Origin: Pseudarthrobacter sulfonivorans
GTDB taxonomy: Bacteria; Actinomycetota; Actinomycetes; Actinomycetales; Micrococcaceae
Length of the DNA stretch: 64,000 nucleotides
Assembly (NCBI RefSeq): GCF_024391045.1
Contig: NZ_JANFCZ010000010.1
Location: 1 to 64,000, forward strand
Direction of reading: 5' to 3'
The notes under the pieces are model-generated. The model saw only the letters and a list, made by a program, of their open reading frames with translations, had not been told where the DNA came from and did no database searches. Shown here piece after piece: positions 6,356 through 17,524 of the stretch. Position 1 is the first letter of the stretch. Every line of letters begins with the position of its first letter. The translations under genes were made by a program, and so were the position numbers.

Positions 6356-8416
6356 ATGGACACGACCACTGGAGCACTACGCATGACGCTCTCCGACGTC
6401 GCCGGGTTGGCCCGGGTTCAGCGACCGGTGGTGTCCATGTGGCGCAAGCGCAGTAGCGCCGGCCCGCTGCCGTTTCCCGCAGCCTCCGAGGTCGTCAACG
6501 GCATCGAACACTTCGACGCAAACCACATCACCGCTTGGCTTCAGGCCACTGGCCGGGGCAACAACCCGGAGGCGGGGAACGACGTCGCGGTTTATGCGAA
6601 CCTCGCTGCAGCAAGAAGCGGGACAAGGGACAGCCGGCAGAGCTTCGACGGGCTGACCTCACTCCTGGCACTGAAGGTCGTCACGGGACAGGCCCTGGCG
6701 CAGAGCTCGCCGGCAGAACTCCTGGATGCCGCGGATGAAGCAGACCCGGACGATATGTTCCTCTACAGCGAGCTCGAGTCCCTTGGCTCGGCGCTTCCCG
6801 GCCTTGCTGACTTCGCGGACCGGCTGGCGGACAGTGCCTTCAGCGCCCCGGCAGCCTTCGAGAAGTTGCTGGCCCACCGCTTCAAGTCGGGGTTGCGCGA
6901 ACAGTCGGACACTGCACTGACCGGCACCGCTCTGAAACTTGTCGCAGAAACAGCCCTGGAACTGGCGGCCACGTTGGACGGCAGGTTCCTCTTCGTCGAT
7001 TCGACGCCCGGCGGGAGTGACGTAATGCTCAGCATCGCGGCGGAGTCCGGCGAATCACGTCACCTCACATTTCTGGCTGCCGACCACCACGGAACCGCAT
7101 CACGCCTGGCGCGCCGGCGCCTGGCAGTACACGGGGCGGACAGCCAACCCGTGAAGATCGATGCCCACGGTGCCTTTGCAGTCAGCGGACCGGCCGTGCA
7201 CGTGGCGCAGTATCCGGCACCGGGCAACCCCGGTATGGACACCCAAGGCGTTCTCTCGGCGGTGGAGAACATCGTCCTGCAAATGGACGACTCGCAGCGC
7301 GCCGTGATCATCGCGCCCGCACGGGTCCTGTGTGACGCGCTGACGGGAGAAGCAGGAAACCTTCGCTCGGACCTCCTGCGCTCGGGCAGGGTGCGGGCCA
7401 TCGTCCGGCTGGAGGCGGGGCTCCTACGCGCCAAACCGCGCGAGCAGCAGGCGCTGTGGGTGCTGGGCCCGTCGTTCGCCGACGTCCCGATCGCGGAGCG
7501 ATGGACCATGGTGGCTGACCTTGGCGCCGTCCCGCTCAGCCTCGACGTCAGCCAGGACCTGATCAGCGACGTCGTCGCATCGATGGGCGATCACGCCACC
7601 ATCCGAGCGCACTCATTCCGGTTTGCCCGGTTGGTCCAGACCCGCGGTCTTCTGGCTGGTAAAGGTGCGCTGGTCAGCGTCCCGGCTGCCAAAAGCACGA
7701 CGGCGGCACGCGGCGCCGAGAATGCGCTGCGGATTGACGAACTCGTGCGGCTCCTCTCCCCCGCCGCTGCAGCATCTCCGGCGCTCCCGGGTATCGAGCT
7801 TGCGGAACGGCAAACGAGGATGTCCCCGGCGATTGTCCAGGAGATGCTCACCGCAGGAACGCTCAGGTACGTCAAAGGCAACCGCGTTGACGAGGGCAAA
7901 CTCAACCGGACGTCCGGCACCAGGGTCATCGGCAGCACGGAACTGCTGCAACCGCACGGGGCCGCGCCGCGGTTCATCAGCCTCCTGGACTTTGCCGCCG
8001 CGCACCCGGCGGGGCGCCTCACCGAACCCGGTGACGTAGTTTTCTTTACCAGTCCGCGGCCCGCTGCCGTGGTCGATGCGGAGGGCGGCGCCGTCGTAGT
8101 CTTCCCTGCCCGGATTCTGCGGATCGACGACGGCGACCCCGGCGGCCTGGTGCCCGACGTCGTCGCCGCGGACATCAACAGCGTGCCGGCAGCCGACAAG
8201 GCGTGGCGCAACTGGCGGGTGCGGCGCACCCCGGATGCCCAACGCCAGCCGCTCGCCGCGGCCCTCGAACAGCTGCACCACGGGCAGGAGCTGGCCCGGC
8301 AGCGTCTCCAACAGCTGGAAGAACTCGCTACCCTGATTACGGACGGCGTAGCGGGCGGAAGCCTCACCCTGACAGACCCCATGACCCACGCCGGACCAAA
8401 AGAAGGAACTCAATAA
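6356..8416 (+). CDS. HTH / degenerate N6-methylase / half-HsdS protein of a type I restriction island
   Basis: 686 residues; the ATG has a GGGGGCGG site. Residues about 8-60 form a MerR-like helix-turn-helix (MTLSDVAGLARVQRPVVSMW). The centre has the proportions of a HsdM-type methylase fold, but I find neither the DPxxGSGG cofactor motif nor the NPPF/NPPY catalytic motif, so it should be inactive. The last 200 residues look like one HsdS unit: a target-recognition-like stretch, then a helix reading PLAAALEQLHHGQELARQRLQQLEEL, ending in TDGVAGGSL. It ends TAATG, overlapping hsdM by one base, so the two are translationally coupled. I infer a DNA-binding accessory or regulatory subunit. Confidence 0.65.
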   Translation: MDTTTGALRMTLSDVAGLARVQRPVVSMWRKRSSAGPLPFPAASEVVNGIEHFDANHITAWLQATGRGNNPEAGNDVAVYANLAAARSGTRDSRQSFDGLTSLLALKVVTGQALAQSSPAELLDAADEADPDDMFLYSELESLGSALPGLADFADRLADSAFSAPAAFEKLLAHRFKSGLREQSDTALTGTALKLVAETALELAATLDGRFLFVDSTPGGSDVMLSIAAESGESRHLTFLAADHHGTASRLARRRLAVHGADSQPVKIDAHGAFAVSGPAVHVAQYPAPGNPGMDTQGVLSAVENIVLQMDDSQRAVIIAPARVLCDALTGEAGNLRSDLLRSGRVRAIVRLEAGLLRAKPREQQALWVLGPSFADVPIAERWTMVADLGAVPLSLDVSQDLISDVVASMGDHATIRAHSFRFARLVQTRGLLAGKGALVSVPAAKSTTAARGAENALRIDELVRLLSPAAAASPALPGIELAERQTRMSPAIVQEMLTAGTLRYVKGNRVDEGKLNRTSGTRVIGSTELLQPHGAAPRFISLLDFAAAHPAGRLTEPGDVVFFTSPRPAAVVDAEGGAVVVFPARILRIDDGDPGGLVPDVVAADINSVPAADKAWRNWRVRRTPDAQRQPLAAALEQLHHGQELARQRLQQLEELATLITDGVAGGSLTLTDPMTHAGPKEGTQ

Positions 8417-10044
8417 TGCCCCCAAAGGTAAAGGTGGACCTCGCCCCGTCCACCATGAAAGAACTCAAGGACACACTCTGGAAGGCCGCGGACAAGCTGC
8501 GCGGTTCCATGGACGCCTCGCAGTACAAGGACGTGATCCTGGGGCTGGTATTCCTGAAGTATGTGTCGGACGCGTTCGAGGAGCGGCGTTCGCAGATCCA
8601 GGCCGAGCTGGAGGCGGACGGGCTCAACGAAGAGCAGATCGCCCAGCTGATCGACGACGTGGATGAGTACACCGGCCGCGGCGTGTTCTGGGTGCCGGCG
8701 CAGGCGCGGTGGGAGTACCTCGCCGCGAACGCGAAGGGCCTCCCGGCAATGGACGGGGCAGCACCGAAGAGCATCGGACAGCTGATTGACGAGGCCATGG
8801 ACCTGGTCATGGCCGCCAACACCTCTCTGGCGGCCACGCTCCCCCGCATCTTCAACCGGGACAACGTGGACCAGCGGCGACTGGGCGAGCTGATGGACCT
8901 GCTGAACTCGGCCCGGTTCACCGGCCAGGGAGTCAGTAAGGCCCGCGACCTCCTCGGCGAGGTGTATGAATACTTCCTGGAGAAGTTCGCGCGGGCCGAG
9001 GGCAAGCGCGGCGGTGAGTTCTACACTCCTGCCGGCGTTGTCCGGGTACTGGTGGAGGTGATGGAGCCGAACCGCGGACGGGTGTACGACCCGTGCTGCG
9101 GTTCTGGCGGCATGTTCGTCCAGACGGAGAAGTTCCTAGAGGCCCACAACAAGGAGGGCTCGGACATCTCCGTGTACGGCCAGGAGCTGAACGAACGCAC
9201 CTGGCGGATGGCGAAGATGAACCTGGCCATCCACGGGCTCAACGCCAACCTGGCGTCCCGCTGGGGCGACACATTTGCCCGCGACCAGCATCCGGAGCTG
9301 ACCGGAGCCAACGGCGCGGACTTCATCATGGCCAACCCGCCGTTCAACATCAAGGACTGGGCCCGCTCCGAGTCCGACCCCCGCTGGAAGTACGGCGTCC
9401 CGCCGGCCGGCAACGCCAACTACGCGTGGATCCAGCACATCATTTCCAAGCTCGCGCCCGGTGGTTCTGCAGGCGTGGTGATGGCCAACGGCTCCATGTC
9501 CTCAAACTCCGGCGGCGAGGGCGAGATCCGCGCCCAGCTGGTGGAGGCCGATTTGGTGTCCTGCATGGTGGCGCTGCCCACCCAGCTCTTCCGGTCCACC
9601 GGCATCCCGGTGTGCACCTGGTTCTTCGCGAAAGACAAGACCGCCGGCCCTCGGGGTTCCGTGGACCGGACCGGTCAGGTGCTCTTCATCGACGCCCGGG
9701 ACCTGGGCTACATGGTGGACCGCGCCGAGCGTGCGTTGTCCGAGGAGGACATCGCCAAGATCGCCGGGACCTACCACGCATGGCGCGGCACCTCCTCGGC
9801 CACTGAGGAAGGATTGACGTACGACGACGAGCCCGGATTCTGCTATTCGGCTTCCCTTTCCGAGATCAAGGCTGCCGACTACGCGTTGACTCCCGGAAGG
9901 TACGTGGGGGCCGCCGAAGTGGCGGACGACGGCGAGCCGGTCGAGGAGAAGATCGCCCGGCTGTCGAAGGAACTGCTGGAGCAGTTCGACGAGTCCGAGC
10001 GGCTGGCTCAGGTCGTGCGCGCGCAGCTGGGGAGGGTGCAGTGA
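8416..10044 (+). CDS. hsdM: Type I restriction-modification methylase subunit HsdM
   Basis: 542 residues from the ATG at 8416 (AAGGAAC site); longer upstream frames are artefacts. The N-terminal helical domain (LKDTLWKAADKLRGSMDAS, LKYVSDAFEERR) is the HsdM_N type. The catalytic domain has the SAM motif DPCCGSGG at about residue 222 and NPPFNIKDW at about 307, the gamma-class N6-adenine signature. The GKRGGEFYTPAGVV lead-in is also typical. With HsdS it should methylate adenine in the system's bipartite target. It is coupled to the preceding gene (1-base overlap) and to hsdS (GTGA overlap). Confidence 0.95.
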   Translation: MPPKVKVDLAPSTMKELKDTLWKAADKLRGSMDASQYKDVILGLVFLKYVSDAFEERRSQIQAELEADGLNEEQIAQLIDDVDEYTGRGVFWVPAQARWEYLAANAKGLPAMDGAAPKSIGQLIDEAMDLVMAANTSLAATLPRIFNRDNVDQRRLGELMDLLNSARFTGQGVSKARDLLGEVYEYFLEKFARAEGKRGGEFYTPAGVVRVLVEVMEPNRGRVYDPCCGSGGMFVQTEKFLEAHNKEGSDISVYGQELNERTWRMAKMNLAIHGLNANLASRWGDTFARDQHPELTGANGADFIMANPPFNIKDWARSESDPRWKYGVPPAGNANYAWIQHIISKLAPGGSAGVVMANGSMSSNSGGEGEIRAQLVEADLVSCMVALPTQLFRSTGIPVCTWFFAKDKTAGPRGSVDRTGQVLFIDARDLGYMVDRAERALSEEDIAKIAGTYHAWRGTSSATEEGLTYDDEPGFCYSASLSEIKAADYALTPGRYVGAAEVADDGEPVEEKIARLSKELLEQFDESERLAQVVRAQLGRVQ

Positions 10045-11189
10045 TCGCGCCCCACCTACCACTGGCGGATATCGCTTCCGCTAAGGGGCTGGTTGGTGGT
10101 CCATTTGGTTCTTCATTAGTGAACAATGACTACAGGGCGAGCGGGGTTCCCGTAATTCGTGGAACGAATCTCGGCTTCGGAAGGCACTTGGGTGGTGACT
10201 TCGCTTTCGTTTCGGAGGGAAAAGTTGCACGAGACCTGTCAAGAAATACGGCGGCTCCCGACGACGTCGTCTTTACGCAGCGGGGAACGCTAGGACAGGT
10301 TGCCCTCGTCCCGGCGGATCCCTATCCCCTATACGTCGTATCCCAAAGCCAAATGCGGCTACGGGTGGACCCGTCCAAGGCGCTTGCTATGTACGTCTAC
10401 TATGCATGCGCATCGCAACCGTTCAATAGACAGATTGTGGACAATGCCATCAGTACCGGTGTACCTCACATTAACCTCGGAATTCTGAACCGCCTTACCA
10501 TTCCGCTGCCGTCCCTTCGCGAACAGCAGGCCATCGCGGAGGTCCTAGGCGCCCTCGACGACAAGATCGCTGCCAATACCAAACTGGCCGCTACGGCCCG
10601 GGACCTGGCCGAGTCGAACTTCCGGCTGATGATGCGGAATGCCGCAGATATGGCGACGCTGAGCGATATCATGTCGTTGGAATACGGGAAGGCATTGCCG
10701 ACGAGTACGCGCAGGCCTGGACCCGTGGACGTCTTCGGTAGCGGAGGTGTCACAGGCTCACACGATCAAGCCCTGTGCCCGGAACCGGGCGTAATTGTAG
10801 GGCGAAAGGGGACAGCCGGGGCTGTCCATTGGTCGCACAGGCCGTTCTTCCCGATCGATACGGCGTACTACGTCGTTCCGAAACTCGATGAAGTCAGCCA
10901 GGTCTTCAGCTACTTCCTTTTACGAACGCTTCGTCTCGACGAGATGAACAACGATTCCGCCGTGCCAGGGCTTAATCGAAATCAGGCTCATGCAGCGCCA
11001 ATCAGATTGCCGACGGCTTCCGCCATTCAAGAATTCACGCTGCTGGCAACTGAACTGTTCGACATTACCGCCCAACGGAACGAGGAGAACGCGACCCTGG
11101 CAGCAACCCGCGACACCCTCCTCCCCCAGCTCATGTCCGGGAAGCTGCGCGTCAAGGATGCGGAATCGCTGGTCGCTGCGGCTGTCTGA
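10041..11189 (+). CDS. hsdS: Type I restriction-modification specificity subunit HsdS
   Basis: 382 residues, starting at a GTG that overlaps the hsdM stop (GTGA). Two target-recognition domains (about 5-145 and 195-330) alternate with conserved helices. The first is LPSLREQQAIAEVLGALDDKI...ESNFRLMM, the second RNEENATLAATRDTLLPQLMSG, which ends in the standard 'LM SGKLRV'. Base composition inside the recognition domains is visibly less GC-rich than in hsdM and hsdR, as expected for domains exchanged between strains. It sets the target sequence of the whole complex. Confidence 0.93.
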   Translation: MIAPHLPLADIASAKGLVGGPFGSSLVNNDYRASGVPVIRGTNLGFGRHLGGDFAFVSEGKVARDLSRNTAAPDDVVFTQRGTLGQVALVPADPYPLYVVSQSQMRLRVDPSKALAMYVYYACASQPFNRQIVDNAISTGVPHINLGILNRLTIPLPSLREQQAIAEVLGALDDKIAANTKLAATARDLAESNFRLMMRNAADMATLSDIMSLEYGKALPTSTRRPGPVDVFGSGGVTGSHDQALCPEPGVIVGRKGTAGAVHWSHRPFFPIDTAYYVVPKLDEVSQVFSYFLLRTLRLDEMNNDSAVPGLNRNQAHAAPIRLPTASAIQEFTLLATELFDITAQRNEENATLAATRDTLLPQLMSGKLRVKDAESLVAAAV

Positions 11190-11260
11190 CCTTGGGCACA
11201 AATTGTCAGTGGCTGCCGATATGTTCGTGCGAACCACAGCCACCGCGAAGGGACCACATT

Positions 11261-12319
11261 ATGTCGGAGCCAGCATCGTTCGAGTCAACGCCTGCCAGAG
11301 CTGGCATGCCGGACTGGTATCCAGACTTGCTAGCCAACGTTTCCAAGGAGATCAGCGCCGGCCGTTCAAGGGCGGTCGCTGCCGTCAACCGTGAGATGCT
11401 GCTGTCGCACTGGACGATCGGCCGCGAGCTTGCCGACCGGGAGTCGGCAGAGGGCTGGGGCGCCAAGGTGGTAACCCGACTCTCCGCCGACATCCGCTCG
11501 GCGTTTCCGGATGCGCGCGGGTTCTCACCCCGCAACCTCCGCTACATGAAGTCGTTCGCGCAGGCCTGGACGGACTTCCCAATGTTGCAAGCGCCGCTTG
11601 CAACATTGCCGTGGTACCACCAGATAGCGCTGCTCGAGAAGCTCAGCGACCCGGAAACCCGGCTCTGGTACGCGGCCGCCGCCGTCGAAAGTGGTTGGTC
11701 GCGGAACGTCCTGGCCCATCACATCCAGACGAACCTCCACGAACGCTCCGGCAAGGCGATCAACAACTTCAAGGCGACGCTGCCGCCGTCGGACTCGGAT
11801 CTCGCCGAGCAGTCATTCAAGGATCCATACGTCTTCGACTTTGTGGCAATGACTGACCAGCGCAACGAACGCGGCCTGGAGAACCAGCTCATTCTTCACG
11901 TCGAAAGGTTCCTCCTAGAACTCGGCCAGGGGTTTGCGTTTGTCGGCCGGCAGGTCCGGCTCACCATCGGCGACGATGAGTTCTTTGCCGACCTGTTGTT
12001 TTACAACTTCAGGCTGCGCTGCTTTGTGGTGGTCGAACTCAAAGCCACAGCCTTCAAGCCCGAATACGTGGGCCAGATCAACATGTACATGTCCGCCGTC
12101 GACGACCTCATGGCGCACCCGGAGGACAGGCCCACCATCGGGCTTTTGCTCTGCAAGACCAAGAACAATGTGGTGGCGGAATACTCGCTTCAAGGGTTCT
12201 CCAAACCCATCGGGGTCGCTGAATGGGAATCGGAAATCGTCAAATCATTGCCCGAGGAATTCGTTTCCACCCTGCCCAGTATCAGCGAACTTGAAGCGGA
12301 ACTCTCGGGCGATGGATAA
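11261..12319 (+). CDS. DUF1016 (YhcG-like) PD-(D/E)xK nuclease domain protein
   Basis: 352 residues from the ATG at 11261, which has a GAAGGGA site; the frame is open to 11192. The N-terminal half (YPDLLANVSKEISAGRSRAV...SHWTIGRELADRE) is the DUF1016 N-domain. The C-terminal half is a PD-(D/E)xK fold with DDEFFADLLFYNFRLRCFVVVELK at about 238-258, the last ELK being the catalytic signature. DUF1016 proteins have been linked to Holliday-junction-like or recombination nucleases and often occur in restriction loci. Placed between hsdS and hsdR in the same direction, it is probably part of the operon as an accessory nuclease. Confidence 0.85.
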   Translation: MSEPASFESTPARAGMPDWYPDLLANVSKEISAGRSRAVAAVNREMLLSHWTIGRELADRESAEGWGAKVVTRLSADIRSAFPDARGFSPRNLRYMKSFAQAWTDFPMLQAPLATLPWYHQIALLEKLSDPETRLWYAAAAVESGWSRNVLAHHIQTNLHERSGKAINNFKATLPPSDSDLAEQSFKDPYVFDFVAMTDQRNERGLENQLILHVERFLLELGQGFAFVGRQVRLTIGDDEFFADLLFYNFRLRCFVVVELKATAFKPEYVGQINMYMSAVDDLMAHPEDRPTIGLLLCKTKNNVVAEYSLQGFSKPIGVAEWESEIVKSLPEEFVSTLPSISELEAELSGDG

Positions 12320-12351: not shown

Positions 12352-15300
12352 GTGAGCACAACACCCGTCAAAATCCCGGCCATCGGTTTTTCCGAAGCAG
12401 ACTGGGAAGGGGTGGCCAAGGAGCGTCTGGGCGAACTCGATTGGAAGCCGATGACCGGCCAAGACATCGCTCCAGGCACCGGCCAACGCGACACCTGGGA
12501 CGAACTCCTGATCCGCTCGCGCTTGCTGGCGGCCCTGCAGAAATTCAATCCCACGGTGCCGCTGCAGTATCTCCAGCAGGCCGCCGCAGAAATTGCGTCG
12601 CCCAAATCCAACGATCCGATGGCCGAAAACCACCGGATCCACGGCTACTTCGTGGACGGCTACCGGCTCAGCTACATCGACACCGACGGCCTCGAAGCCA
12701 ACCCCACCATCCGTCTGCTCAGCCCCGACCCGGACCAGAACGACTGGCTCGCTGTCAACCAGGTCACGCTCATCCAGGGTGACTACAAACGCCGCTTCGA
12801 CCTCGTGCTGTACTGCAACGGCATGCCCGTCAGCATCGTCGAGCTCAAGAAGGCCGGCAGCGCCACGGCCGACGTCGCCGCCGCGCACGCCCAGCTCCAG
12901 ACCTACCTCCGAGAATTCCCGCTCGCCTTCCGCTTCTGCGTCTTCACCCTCGCCTCCGACGGCATCGAGGCCAAATACGGCACGCCGTTCACACCGCTCA
13001 ACCACTTCTCACCCTGGAACGTGGACGACGACGGCGTCCCTGTCGCTCCTGGCTACATGGAAGACGGGGAGGCGGTCACCCAGCTGGAGACAGCCCTGAA
13101 CGGGATGTACAACCAGACCCGCTTCCTTCAGCTGGTTAATAACTTCACCGCGTTCGACGGCGGCTCCGAGGGTTTGGTGAAAAGGATCGCCAAACCGCAC
13201 CAGTACTTTGCCGTGACCAAGGCCGTGGGCAGTACAGTCCAGGCCGTGGAAAGCAACGGGAAGGCTGGCGTCGTCTGGCACACCCAGGGCTCCGGCAAGT
13301 CCATGGAGATGGAGCTTTACACCAACCTTGTGGCACGGCACCCGCGGCTGAAGAACCCCACCGTTGTGGTCATCACGGACCGGAACGAACTGGATGGCCA
13401 GCTGTACGAAGGGTTCGCCAAAAGCCTGCTCCTGGCCGAGGCACCCAAGCAGATCCGCCGTCGTCATGAACTGCGGGACGAACTCTCAAACCGGACCACC
13501 GGCGGCATCTACTTCACCACCCTGCAGAAGTTCGGCCGGAGTAAAGCCGAGAAGGACGCCGGGGCCGACCACCCGCTGCTGTCTGACCGGCGGAACATCA
13601 TCGTGGTGGTGGACGAGGCGCACCGCAGCCACTATGACGACCTGGACGGCTATGCGCGGCACCTTCGCGACGCGCTGCCCCATGCAACCCTGATCGCGTT
13701 CACCGGGACGCCGATCTCTTTTGATGACCGCAATACGCGGGACGTCTTCGGCGATTACATTGACATCTACGACCTGTCGCGCGCCGTGGAGGACGGCGCC
13801 ACGGTACCTGTCTACTTCGAGCCGCGGCTGATCAAAGTTGAGTTGGCGGCCGGGATGACCGAAGAGGACCTGGACCGGTCCGCCGACGAACTCACCACGG
13901 GGCTCGACGACACGGAACGGGCGCGCATCGAGGCGAGTGTCGCCGTCGTCAACGCCGTCTACGGTGCGCCGCAGCGCATTGCGGCGCTGGCCGAGGACCT
14001 GGTGACGCACTGGGAGAACCGCAGCACGCGGATGAGGAAGTTCATTGAGTCGCCGGGCAAGGCGATGATCGTGGGCGGCACGCGGGAGATCTGCGCCAAC
14101 CTGTACGCGGCCATTGTGGCGCTGCGGCCGGAATGGCACTCGGATGACCTGTCCAAGGGGAAGATCAAGGTGGTGTACTCAGGCACGCCGTCCGACGCGC
14201 CCCCGGTGGTGAATCACGTGCGCCGCGATTCGCTGAATGCCCAGCTCAAGGAACGGCTCAAGGACGTCGATGACGAACTGGAGATGGTGATCGTCAAGGA
14301 CATGATGCTCACCGGCTACGACTCCCCTCCCCTGCACACCCTGTACCTGGACCGGCCGCTGCGGGGTGCGCTGCTGATGCAGACGCTGGCCCGTGTGAAC
14401 CGGACGTTCCGCGGCAAGGAGGACGGGCTCCTGGTGGCGTACGCACCGCTGGCGGAGAACCTGGCGAAGGCGCTGGCCGAGTACACGGACACTGACCAGC
14501 AGAAGAAGCCGGTGGGCAAGAACATCGACGACGCTATTGCGGTGACCACTGACCTGGTGGCGAAGATCGCCGGCCTGCTGGCCGGGTACGACTGGCGGGG
14601 TGTTTTGATGAAGGGCGGCCCGAAGGCCTTCCTGAATGCGGTGACCGGCGCGGTGAACTACCTGCGGTCGCCGGCGACGCCATTCGTTTCGCCTTCGCCC
14701 GACGAGGAGACCCTCGCCGCAGCCTACCGCCGGTTGTCCGGCCAGCTCTCGCGGGCTTGGGCGCTGTGTTCGGGCGCCGCGGCAATGGCTCCGCTGCTGC
14801 CCGAGGTGAAGATGTACGAGGAGATCCGGGTCTGGATGGCGAAGTTCGACGCCAACGACCGCCAGGCGTCCGGCGAGCCAGTGCCGGAGGACATCCAGCG
14901 GCTGCTGGGCGAGCTGATAGCTTCCGCTACCTCTTCCGGGGAGATACTCGACATCTACGAGGCCGCCGGCATGCCGAAGCCTTCCTTGGACGACCTGACA
15001 CCCGAGTTCATCGCGAAGACGCAGAAGGCCCGGAACCCTCAGCTGGCCATCGAAGCCCTGCGGAAACTCATTGCCGAGGAGTCCGTGGCGACAACCCGGA
15101 ACAACGTGATCCGGCAGCGTGCCTTCTCCGAACGCATTACCGAGCTGATGAAGAAGTACACCAACCAGCAGCTCACCTCAGCGGAGGTCATTGCCGAGCT
15201 GGTGGAGCTGGCCCGTGAAGTTGCCCTGGAAGGCAACCGCGGTGCGCACTTCACTCCCCCACTGAACTCGGACGAGCTCGCGTTCTACGATGCCGTTGCT

Positions 15301-15573
15301 TCGAACGAGTCTGCGGTGGAGGTGCAGGGCGAAGGGAAGCTGGCCGAGATTGCGCGGCAGCTCGTGAATGTCATGCGGCGCGATGTACGCACCGATTGGA
15401 CCGTACGGGACGACGTCCGTGCCAAGCTCCGCTCTTCAATCAAGCGGCTGCTTGTCCTCAACGGGTATCCGCCGGACAAGCAGCCCGAGGCCATCAAGCT
15501 CGTCATGGAGCAGATGGAGTCCATGGCGCCCCGGTTTGTTGAGGGGCGTAGCGGTCCTAAGCAATGGTTGTAA
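12352..15573 (+). CDS. hsdR: Type I restriction endonuclease/translocase subunit HsdR
   Basis: 1073 residues from a GTG with a GGGGGAATA site. The N-terminal nuclease domain has RFDLVLY...SIVELKK (about 148-168), a PD-(D/E)xK arrangement. It is followed by a superfamily 2 helicase motor: Walker A HTQGSGKS at about 310, motif II DEAHRSHYDD at about 420, and motif III LIAFTGTPI. Later motifs include VKDMMLTGYDSPPLHTLYLD and QTLARVNR. The C-terminal helical region should dock on the methylase. All key residues are present, so the restriction subunit looks functional. It is the last core gene of the system. Confidence 0.95.
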   Translation: MSTTPVKIPAIGFSEADWEGVAKERLGELDWKPMTGQDIAPGTGQRDTWDELLIRSRLLAALQKFNPTVPLQYLQQAAAEIASPKSNDPMAENHRIHGYFVDGYRLSYIDTDGLEANPTIRLLSPDPDQNDWLAVNQVTLIQGDYKRRFDLVLYCNGMPVSIVELKKAGSATADVAAAHAQLQTYLREFPLAFRFCVFTLASDGIEAKYGTPFTPLNHFSPWNVDDDGVPVAPGYMEDGEAVTQLETALNGMYNQTRFLQLVNNFTAFDGGSEGLVKRIAKPHQYFAVTKAVGSTVQAVESNGKAGVVWHTQGSGKSMEMELYTNLVARHPRLKNPTVVVITDRNELDGQLYEGFAKSLLLAEAPKQIRRRHELRDELSNRTTGGIYFTTLQKFGRSKAEKDAGADHPLLSDRRNIIVVVDEAHRSHYDDLDGYARHLRDALPHATLIAFTGTPISFDDRNTRDVFGDYIDIYDLSRAVEDGATVPVYFEPRLIKVELAAGMTEEDLDRSADELTTGLDDTERARIEASVAVVNAVYGAPQRIAALAEDLVTHWENRSTRMRKFIESPGKAMIVGGTREICANLYAAIVALRPEWHSDDLSKGKIKVVYSGTPSDAPPVVNHVRRDSLNAQLKERLKDVDDELEMVIVKDMMLTGYDSPPLHTLYLDRPLRGALLMQTLARVNRTFRGKEDGLLVAYAPLAENLAKALAEYTDTDQQKKPVGKNIDDAIAVTTDLVAKIAGLLAGYDWRGVLMKGGPKAFLNAVTGAVNYLRSPATPFVSPSPDEETLAAAYRRLSGQLSRAWALCSGAAAMAPLLPEVKMYEEIRVWMAKFDANDRQASGEPVPEDIQRLLGELIASATSSGEILDIYEAAGMPKPSLDDLTPEFIAKTQKARNPQLAIEALRKLIAEESVATTRNNVIRQRAFSERITELMKKYTNQQLTSAEVIAELVELAREVALEGNRGAHFTPPLNSDELAFYDAVASNESAVEVQGEGKLAEIARQLVNVMRRDVRTDWTVRDDVRAKLRSSIKRLLVLNGYPPDKQPEAIKLVMEQMESMAPRFVEGRSGPKQWL

Positions 15574-15697: not shown

Positions 15698-16708
15698 ATG
15701 AAACAAGAACTAACCGCATATATTAGCGACCTGACAATTACCAACCGAGTGTTGTTCGTCGCTGCCGCTATAGCGGGAGGGTTGCAGATTGTGAGTATGC
15801 TCGGCTACCTCGGCAATGAGCAGCCTTGGACGCTGCGCATCGTATCTTTTTCACTCCTGGCGTTGGTGGCAATTTTGTTAGAGACCCAGGTCCATCAGGT
15901 ACGACTCGAGAAGGACCGTGACGATAAAATCTCCAAACTTATCGAATCAGAAGGAGCCAATTCACGCGCGCTGGAAACAGTCAGCCAGAAGCTGGATGTG
16001 CTCACAAAGAGAAAAGCCCCGTATCACATCGAGCCGTCTTTTATTGAAAGTGAACTGGATGCTCTACTGGCGTCGGAGACAGCCAGCGTGTGGAAGTTCC
16101 GAGGCGGCTCAGGCCGTTGGCAACGGAGCCGCGTGCTACCCTCTCTCACTCGAATTAAAACCCGAGATGTCACATACAAAATGTTGATCTTAGATCCCCG
16201 AAATAACGCACTTTGTTCGCAATACGCCAAGTACCGGAATACTCATCGAAAGAACGGTGCAACTGAACAGGCGACTGCGGCATCGGTGAAAAATGACCTC
16301 TTGGCTTGTATCATCTCTGCGGCTTGGCACAGCGCACGTTCACGCATCACACCCTTTTTGTACTTGAACCAGACCTATAGCCCACTCAGGGTTGATTTGA
16401 GTAATGCCGGAGCGATGATGACAGTCTCAGACCTCTCAAGCCCGGGGCTATTCTGCCGACCAGAGTCCTGGTTTTACCAGTCTCTTGACGATGAGTTGGA
16501 ACGTTCATTGGATCAATCTCCGAAGATTGATTTCCAACACAACGAAATGGAACTCCACAGCGCCGACGCCCTTACTGTTGAACACACAGAGAGCATTCTT
16601 CGCAACACTCACATATCCACACCCCGCGGTCTGGAGCGCCTCGTGCCCGATTCGCAGCTTGCAGGGCTCGACGTTGCCGAAATCACGCGATTGTGCATTG
16701 CGGTCTGA
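15698..16708 (+). CDS. Unrecognised two-transmembrane protein with cytoplasmic coiled coil and C-terminal domain
   Basis: 336 residues; GAGGA site before the ATG. Two N-terminal membrane helices (RVLFVAAAIAGGLQIVSML and IVSFSLLALVAILLETQV) precede a charged coiled coil (about 65-110). The C-terminal domain of about 220 residues contains YKMLILDPRNNALCSQYAKY, SARSRITPFLYLNQTYSPLRVD and RPESWFYQSLDDELERSLD. The 'LILDP', 'P-LRVD-S' and 'FY' pattern recalls DUF5919/phospholipase-D-like domains, but no HKD motif is present. It shares its stop with the next start (TGATG). AT-richer codon use than its neighbours suggests recent acquisition. Likely a membrane effector or sensor; not assigned. Confidence 0.6.
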   Translation: MKQELTAYISDLTITNRVLFVAAAIAGGLQIVSMLGYLGNEQPWTLRIVSFSLLALVAILLETQVHQVRLEKDRDDKISKLIESEGANSRALETVSQKLDVLTKRKAPYHIEPSFIESELDALLASETASVWKFRGGSGRWQRSRVLPSLTRIKTRDVTYKMLILDPRNNALCSQYAKYRNTHRKNGATEQATAASVKNDLLACIISAAWHSARSRITPFLYLNQTYSPLRVDLSNAGAMMTVSDLSSPGLFCRPESWFYQSLDDELERSLDQSPKIDFQHNEMELHSADALTVEHTESILRNTHISTPRGLERLVPDSQLAGLDVAEITRLCIAV

Positions 16709-17385
16709 TGACGAACGCTGAGACGAAAAGAGTTAGCATGCTCGCTCAACTTGTGGATGATCTGAAAGCCGGCCGCATACCAATAGTCGCCCCTAAAGAG
16801 CCAGACTTAGTGCTCACAGATCTAGTCAGGGGGCTGGACCGGGTAGATGTGACATTGCATCCCCTCGGCTTTGTGCACTACGACCTGCAAAACCTGACGC
16901 CACTCGGGGCTGGAGAATTTGCGCGACTCCACGTATGGAATCCAAAGCTTTCCCCGCCCGACGCCGGAGGTGCAATACATGATCACACCTGGAATCTTTC
17001 GAGCCTAATTCTTAAGGGTTCTGTTCGAAATATAAATCTAAAACCGGAACCTGATGAGTCGGGCGACTTTACCGGTCTTAGAGTCAGATACGGACTAACC
17101 AACGAGTTCGAACCAGCAGGCAGATACAAATTGACCCTTATTAGCGATGATATCCATTCTGCGGGTAGTACCTACCGAATTCCCAGCAGGATAGTGCACG
17201 AGTCAAAGCTCCTTTCGGAATGCGCTGTGACTTTGGTCGTTGGATCATCAGATCAGCAAGCCGATGTCTTGGGCCCGCTTATTCTGACCAAAGGCAGCGC
17301 TGCGGCTCCTGGGACAAGGGTTCGCCAGGTACTAAGTAGACACGACGCGCAGGCCATCCTCGAGTCGCTGTTGCTTCAGCCGTGA
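16708..17385 (+). CDS. Cupin-fold protein coupled to the two-TM gene
   Basis: 225 residues from the ATG at 16708, which overlaps the preceding stop as TGATG; an earlier in-frame ATG at 16693 lies inside the upstream gene. The centre has cupin motif 1, GGAIHDHTWNLSSLILKGSV, with an H-x-H metal pair, and motif 2 near YRIPSRIVHESK with the third histidine. This resembles cysteine-dioxygenase-like or small-molecule-binding cupins. The substrate cannot be told. Codon use is AT-richer than the chromosome's. The tight coupling implies that it works with, or modulates, the membrane protein. A strong terminator follows. Confidence 0.65.
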   Translation: MTNAETKRVSMLAQLVDDLKAGRIPIVAPKEPDLVLTDLVRGLDRVDVTLHPLGFVHYDLQNLTPLGAGEFARLHVWNPKLSPPDAGGAIHDHTWNLSSLILKGSVRNINLKPEPDESGDFTGLRVRYGLTNEFEPAGRYKLTLISDDIHSAGSTYRIPSRIVHESKLLSECAVTLVVGSSDQQADVLGPLILTKGSAAAPGTRVRQVLSRHDAQAILESLLLQP

Positions 17386-17457
17386 CTGAGACGAACCAAA
17401 ACGCAACCGCAGTCTCCAAAGATTCCGTGCCTGCGTAGTTAAGTAGTTAAGTAGCGT

Positions 17458-17496
17458 CATGGCCCCGGATCCTCCTGACGAGGATCCGGGGCCATG
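17458..17496. terminator. Bidirectional terminator between the defence island and nrdF
   Basis: A perfect 17-bp stem (CATGGCCCCGGATCCTC and complement) with loop CTGAC separates convergent transcription units. The run ATTTGTTT follows on the + strand. It also marks the right border of the island. Confidence 0.8.
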
Positions 17497-17524
17497 ATTT
17501 GTTTCAGTATTCGGTACAAGGCGA

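Follow-up and report, generated by a model that had tools for sequence, protein, structure and literature searches.

What role do two neighbouring AT-rich genes play between hsdR and nrdF in Pseudarthrobacter sulfonivorans? We analysed the 64,000-nt stretch of contig NZ_JANFCZ010000010.1 in which they lie (hereafter the window). The two plus-strand open reading frames (ORFs) were found at the coordinates given by a first-pass annotation, which had regarded them as a membrane-acting defence or signalling pair. Gene 1 encodes a predicted membrane protein, and gene 2 a predicted cupin. Seen from gene 1, the two form a real, conserved two-gene module, and this conclusion is solid. As to function, we tentatively favour a ligand-gated membrane effector that is held quiet by a cupin removing its nucleotide-like signal, a reading that we place somewhat short of probable.

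Conservation of the pair was evaluated in 105 loci, all picked for holding gene 1: the window, 22 genome loci, the best 80 of 260 gene 1 relatives from a scan of named genomes, and two plasmids. Both genes were located on one strand in every one of these loci (103 distinct), and the cupin domain lay within − 60 to 150 bp of the gene 1 stop codon in 102; the remaining three were L033, L122, and L129. All of the best 80 of 260 relatives carried the cupin downstream. The two proteins diverged in parallel, with a mirror correlation of 0.93, a value that includes shared descent. Seen from the cupin, the adjacency was looser than this: among genomes with a cupin, 20 of 25 in the class and 4 of 6 in the family had gene 1 next to it, as did 2 of 4 plasmids. 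Loci with a cupin and no counted gene 1 were kept out of the 105, namely the seven bacterial loci L050, L051, and L214 to L218, together with L222 and L223. The cupin of L215 is 548 bases from the contig end, and gene 1 may therefore lie outside the contig.

The occurrence of both genes is patchy. Gene 1 was found in 20/394 class genomes and 3/376 order genomes, and the cupin in 25/394 class genomes and 6/395 family genomes. In the protein database, 11 sequences related to gene 1 and 24 related to the cupin were found (the window's own included), and a wider profile gave 69; the gene 1 and wider-profile searches scored only the candidates with the most shared words. The relatives whose organism is given are actinobacterial. 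The plasmids bearing gene 1 belong to Rhodococcus opacus and to Methylobacterium, a proteobacterium. No match was obtained in genome contigs with the first cupin alignment as a profile, or on plasmids by a DNA-level search.

At L050:9646-11107 and L051:8771-10308, a divergent cupin accompanies another membrane protein, the soluble part of which bears a VRILLPDP motif. These partners (262 and 264 aa) appear PLD-like by eye and gave 41.6% in a profile comparison with gene 1, chiefly in the membrane part. They were not counted in the gene 1 family because that similarity lies mostly in the membrane part and their matches to the gene 1 model are weak (E 0.0016 and 0.0069).

We next consider what each protein is likely to be. 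Gene 1 has two hydrophobic stretches in its hydropathy profile, and its AF2 model predicts that two membrane helices are followed by a long helix and then by a PLD-like domain (Table 1). This prediction agrees with the two N-terminal membrane helices and the coiled coil of the first-pass annotation, and its motifs were all found in the translations (LILDP, SPLRVD, and FY in gene 1; IHDHTW and RIVHES in gene 2). In the model, residues ~ 105 to 280 matched the folds of TrmB, TrmBL2, SauUSI, Nuc, BfiI, and NgoAVII, which assigns this part, on the model alone, to the PLD-like fold. R143, D166, C173, R231, and E266 of the domain are invariant. None of 55 sequences had the catalytic motif HxKxxxxD where it would be expected, and this absence is solid. 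The motif occurred in full only once, at the C-terminal end of P0097; the sole HxK in the relevant region, in P0081, lacks the remainder of it. An active PLD was therefore rejected for gene 1. A PLD-like fold that has lost its catalytic motif suits a sensor role. Gene 1 shares this fold with the TrmB and PLD-family domains and differs from them by its predicted membrane anchor and the absence of HKD.

The model of gene 2 shows a predicted cysteine-dioxygenase-like cupin fold with a three-His metal site. Five His, three of them the predicted metal ligands listed in Table 1, are invariant among 42 aligned cupins. The predicted folds of both proteins are confident models. Dioxygenases, lyases, and isomerases are among the best structural matches of the cupin, and cysteine dioxygenase ranks among its nearest folds. 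Cysteine dioxygenases are marked by a substrate Arg and by Ser-His-Tyr and Cys-Tyr residues. The present cupin shares the fold and the HxH…H site with this family (YubC, mammalian CDO) and differs from it by two extra invariant His, the lack of any invariant Cys among the 42 sequences, and only weak similarity in sequence (phrog_4786 'cysteine dioxygenase', E 5.5e-5). Thus, because of the extra His and the missing Cys, we did not adopt a cysteine dioxygenase identity for gene 2. The cupin model also matched the fold of BFVD A0A7D3QW33, a giant-virus protein named NUDIX ADP-ribose pyrophosphatase.

Neither protein had a meaningful match in Pfam, PADLOC, NCBIfam, or PDB sequences. Pfam and NCBIfam gave nothing above the cut-off, PADLOC gave nothing at E 10, and the PDB-sequence rows were at chance level; the profiles of the pair likewise had no match among PDB sequences. 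The view of the first-pass annotation that no described system has this pairing agrees with our literature search, which found none in the part of the results covered. The pair is not described in the excerpts of PMC7824862, PMC9503650, PMC7159879, PMC11204291, and PMC10100988, and those of PMC10853773 contain no relevant term.

The cupin was also found in phages. Homologues were present in 296 phage records at E 0.01, none spanning 80% of the query; 284 of the records are named for Pseudomonas, 7 for Brevundimonas, 4 for Pbunalikevirus, and 1 otherwise. A further scan found them on 97 viral contigs, of which 80 were retained, and on two Pseudomonas plasmids. The phage protein family phrog_4784, frequent in Pbunavirus, is homologous to the window cupin (for example L304:5061-5609 and L222:7968-8537). 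The bacterial and phage profiles matched across 164 columns (98.7%), and the same five His are kept in 13 aligned phage-type sequences. The phage and prophage copies differ from the bacterial pair in that gene 1 is missing. At E 1e-3, none of 50,697 phage records matched the window gene 1, and no gene 1 match turned up in the 82 stretches of phage and plasmid DNA holding the cupin. Viral scans with the gene 1 alignment and with the first cupin alignment gave no match. By eye, an integrase-like gene lies a few genes from many of the phage copies. Excerpts of PMC13232231 describe how cyclic ADP-ribose signals are destroyed by an enzyme of phage origin. A phage cupin without the membrane gene would fit a counter-weapon, and a signal-destroying cupin would serve as a host off-switch and as phage counter-defence alike.

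A few loci connect the cupin to nucleotide processing. At L042:10339-11397, a single protein consists of the cupin fused to a NUDIX domain, and its gene has one for a type IV restriction enzyme as a neighbour. At L214:11847-14347, a NUDIX gene, a TIR-like/Macro-like gene, and the cupin follow one another on one strand, with no gene 1 match in the stretch; the TIR-like part of the middle gene matched a PADLOC TIR effector (E 2.4e-6), and the Macro-like part had a Pfam E of 0.0011, below the cut-off. The cupin of L217 directly adjoins a NUDIX gene. General enrichment of NUDIX near the cupin was not supported by counts of the NUDIX box, which misses the L042 fusion. NUDIX enzymes are the class that splits NDP-X bonds, and NUDIX and Macro domains are discussed in connection with NAD and ADP-ribose derivatives (excerpts of PMC9503650), as are TIR proteins (excerpts of PMC11204291). 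From these neighbours and the literature on them, an ADP-ribose-type ligand for the pair is a reasonable guess, no more.

A giant gene is a frequent neighbour of the pair. Clusters of neighbouring genes were counted in 104 loci; these counts are approximate because of wrong-frame ORFs in the GC-rich gene calls. An inositol-monophosphatase-type gene was near 76 loci, the giant near 74, a transporter near 60, uvrB near 59, and coaE near 31. For each of the first four, the Pfam name comes from a single representative, and coaE was assigned by eye. The representative giant carries TIR, NA-iREase3, and WD40 domains, as in the giants of this type in actinomycetes, and a TIR-type start was recognized by pattern in 57 of the 74 giant loci. 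At L039:1842-10439, gene 1, the cupin, the inositol-monophosphatase-type gene, and the giant overlap or abut, apparently as a four-gene operon. PF22739 was found in 16 of 20 genomes with gene 1 and in 36 of 394 overall, in a class census that ignores kinship, and in 13 of those 16 it was on the same contig within 18 kb.

These features resemble two known systems. In TM-macro Thoeris, the membrane effector ThsA has two helices and a soluble domain, as is predicted for gene 1, and the soluble domain of ThsA binds NAD-derived nucleotides and clusters (excerpts of PMC11204291). TIR-type genes also lie near many homologues of the present pair. The pair differs from Thoeris in that gene 1 is PLD-like in its model and has no Pfam Macro domain, the partner is a cupin instead of a TIR protein, PADLOC gives no match, and the window pair is adjoined by hsdR and nrdF with no adjacent TIR (ThsB) gene. 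Panoptes (mCpol + 2TM-beta) reportedly consists of two genes, one for a protein with two transmembrane helices and a ligand domain and one for a small-molecule enzyme. The present pair has the same layout, with a cupin and not the mCpol cyclase, and with a PLD-like domain and not the beta domain. Since the Macro domain and the TIR and mCpol partners are all absent, the pair belongs to neither system. By analogy, it would act like either of them. The PLD-like domain of gene 1 would sense a small molecule, nucleotide-like and probably derived from NAD+ or ADP-ribose. A rise in this signal would make the sensor domains cluster and the membrane helices breach the inner membrane, and phage growth would stop. 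At rest, the cupin would hold the signal low and act as an off-switch.

The setting of the pair in the window is one of the contexts that fit immunity. It follows a type I restriction-modification (RM) operon, whose GC content ranges from 0.583 to 0.659 across its genes, compared with 0.516 for gene 1, 0.525 for gene 2, 0.591 for nrdF, and 0.65 for the whole window. The pair is thus AT-richer than its flanks, as the first-pass annotation held, and its placement between hsdR and a terminator also stands. The region has two terminator-like sites, compared with a mean of 1.7 after shuffling; the long, GC-rich one (Table 1) is followed by nrdF, a host backbone gene with a match in 41/41 genomes of the genus. 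The proposed TGATG join is present at 16706-16710, so that the cupin could begin at the ATG at 16708. The start common to homologues is the later ATG at 16738, and an overlap of the two genes is therefore possible and uncertain. A YhcG-type PDDEXK nuclease gene is lodged within the RM operon, with hsdS and hsdR on either side.

Table 1 Features of the pair and its surroundings in the window.
Feature	Position	Strand	Basis or remark
Gene 1, 336 aa, predicted membrane protein with two transmembrane helices and a PLD-like domain in the cytoplasm	15698..16708	+	
First predicted membrane helix, aa 14-35	15737..15802	+	AF2 secondary structure, hydropathy count
Second predicted membrane helix, continuing as a long coiled-coil-like helix, aa 43-106	15824..16015	+	AF2
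PLD-like fold, aa 108-280, without HKD motif	16019..16537	+	Model, motif scan
Gene 2, five-His cupin, 215 aa	16738..17385 (possible earlier start ATG 16708)	+	
HxH (H81, H83), predicted metal ligands	16978..16986	+	Invariant in 42/42 aligned cupins
H154, predicted third metal ligand	17197..17199	+	Invariant in 42/42 aligned cupins
Terminator-like hairpin, 19 pairs	17456-17498	none	Between pair and nrdF
hsdM (context)	8203..10044	+	Neighbour scan
hsdS (context)	10041..11189	+	Neighbour scan
YhcG-type PDDEXK nuclease, PADLOC PDC-S02 (context)	11192..12319	+	Neighbour scan, PADLOC
hsdR (context)	12352..15573	+	Neighbour scan, PADLOC

The nrdF flank was fetched for eight relatives. A similar RM operon occupies the same place in three of them, and the other five have no such operon there. 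In those three, the slot before nrdF holds other cargo instead of the pair. At L152:14873-18002 this cargo is a PADLOC PDC-M07 pair with a ThsB-like TIR gene, and it suggests that the site between hsdR and nrdF may be a defence hotspot; L154 and L156 have a small RelE-like gene there by eye, and the L154 copy had no PADLOC match. Elsewhere, besides the pair of L042 next to the type IV restriction enzyme, some 5 kb separate the plasmid pair of L220 from a CARF gene, an ORC-CDC6-like ATPase lying in the interval, and the cupin of L218, without gene 1, adjoins BrxD and BrxHI of a BREX system.

Several results weigh against an immune function. uvrB is near 59 of the 104 loci, 31 of which also have coaE. 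It was seen in Actinomadura and Streptosporangium among others and not in the fetched stretches of Micromonospora and Nocardia. This is a stable, fixed chromosomal site of a housekeeping type. The giant is present in 55 of the 59 uvrB loci, where its position amounts to conserved gene order and provides no independent evidence. It is also present in 19 of the 45 other loci, so it is not merely a passenger of the uvrB site. A scan of a few neighbours at L047 and L049 to L051 gave no convincing defence gene. Neighbours at these loci were a YchF GTPase, NAD(P)-binding proteins, an alpha/beta hydrolase, and a helicase-associated domain; L051 had no match, and L050 had one weak mad1 match (E 6e-4). 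L048 has a PIN_8 protein, for which PADLOC gave no match, and also a weak Dsr1 match (E 1.5e-4). The PADLOC context run covered chosen neighbours and has no background rate, and the BREX, TIR-like/Macro-like, and L217 NUDIX contexts are those of cupins with no gene 1 match in the stretch. In the NUDIX-box count, 112 loci gave 2 near matches over 757 kb, and the far flanks gave 1 over 1,370 kb. None of the ten window ORFs scanned had a TIR, Macro, or NUDIX domain, and PF22739 had no match in the genome of the window. Foldseek TM-scores to PDB chains were low for both models, and pore action of gene 1 is suggested by analogy only. Phages use cupins in metabolism as well, and a metabolic role of the phage cupin is possible.

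The alternative that fares best is an actinomycete membrane sensor with a housekeeping job in redox, thiol, or envelope stress, which has sometimes moved with islands and has no part in immunity. The uvrB site speaks for it, as do the Micromonospora copies (85-92% identical), the inositol-monophosphatase-type neighbour, the closeness of the cupin to cysteine dioxygenase, and the scanned neighbours of L047 and L049 to L051, which include no convincing defence gene. The patchy occurrence of both genes, the AT-rich cargo beside RM in the window, the pairs beside the type IV restriction enzyme and the plasmid CARF island, and the TIR-type giant in 74 of 104 loci argue against it, and we consider it unlikely. 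Of the proposal in the first-pass annotation, the conserved pair, the PLD-like fold without its motif, some defence contexts, and nucleotide-processing neighbours in a few loci stand in its favour, and the housekeeping context that would count against it was found in part, at the uvrB loci, most of which hold the giant.

The pair may also work with the opposite sign, the cupin making or maturing an activating signal, for example through oxidation of a nucleotide conjugate, with gene 1 as the effector. This is suggested by the dioxygenases, lyases, and isomerases among the structural matches of the cupin. In Panoptes, the partner of the membrane effector is likewise said to produce the signal, and the same is described for TM-macro Thoeris in excerpts of PMC11204291. 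The occurrence of the cupin in phages that lack the effector, and the fusion of one cupin to NUDIX, a breaker of NDP-X bonds, both fit signal removal better than signal making, and we regard the making of a signal as quite unlikely. A toxin-antitoxin arrangement, in which the cupin would block gene 1 by direct binding with no small molecule, agrees with the close adjacency, the parallel divergence (shared descent included), and the phage relatives of the second component, but is very improbable, as the five invariant His of bacterial and phage cupins point to a conserved metal site and not just a binding surface, and the fold of gene 1 binds ligands elsewhere (TrmB).

We therefore return to the signal-removing cupin and its membrane effector. 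In its fullest form, this reading would be an undescribed kind of immune signalling, in which a dead-PLD membrane pore reads an NAD- or ADP-ribose-type signal, the five-His cupin destroys that signal, and phages of Pseudomonas and Brevundimonas have captured the cupin (phrog_4784) as counter-defence; taken together, these steps are rather unlikely. If the reading is true, a PLD fold without its catalytic motif would be a new type of sensor for bacterial membrane-effector immunity, and the cupin would bring new chemistry to it. It would also give a testable function to phrog_4784, a phage family whose cupin relatives occur in hundreds of phage records. The pair is small and easily tested.
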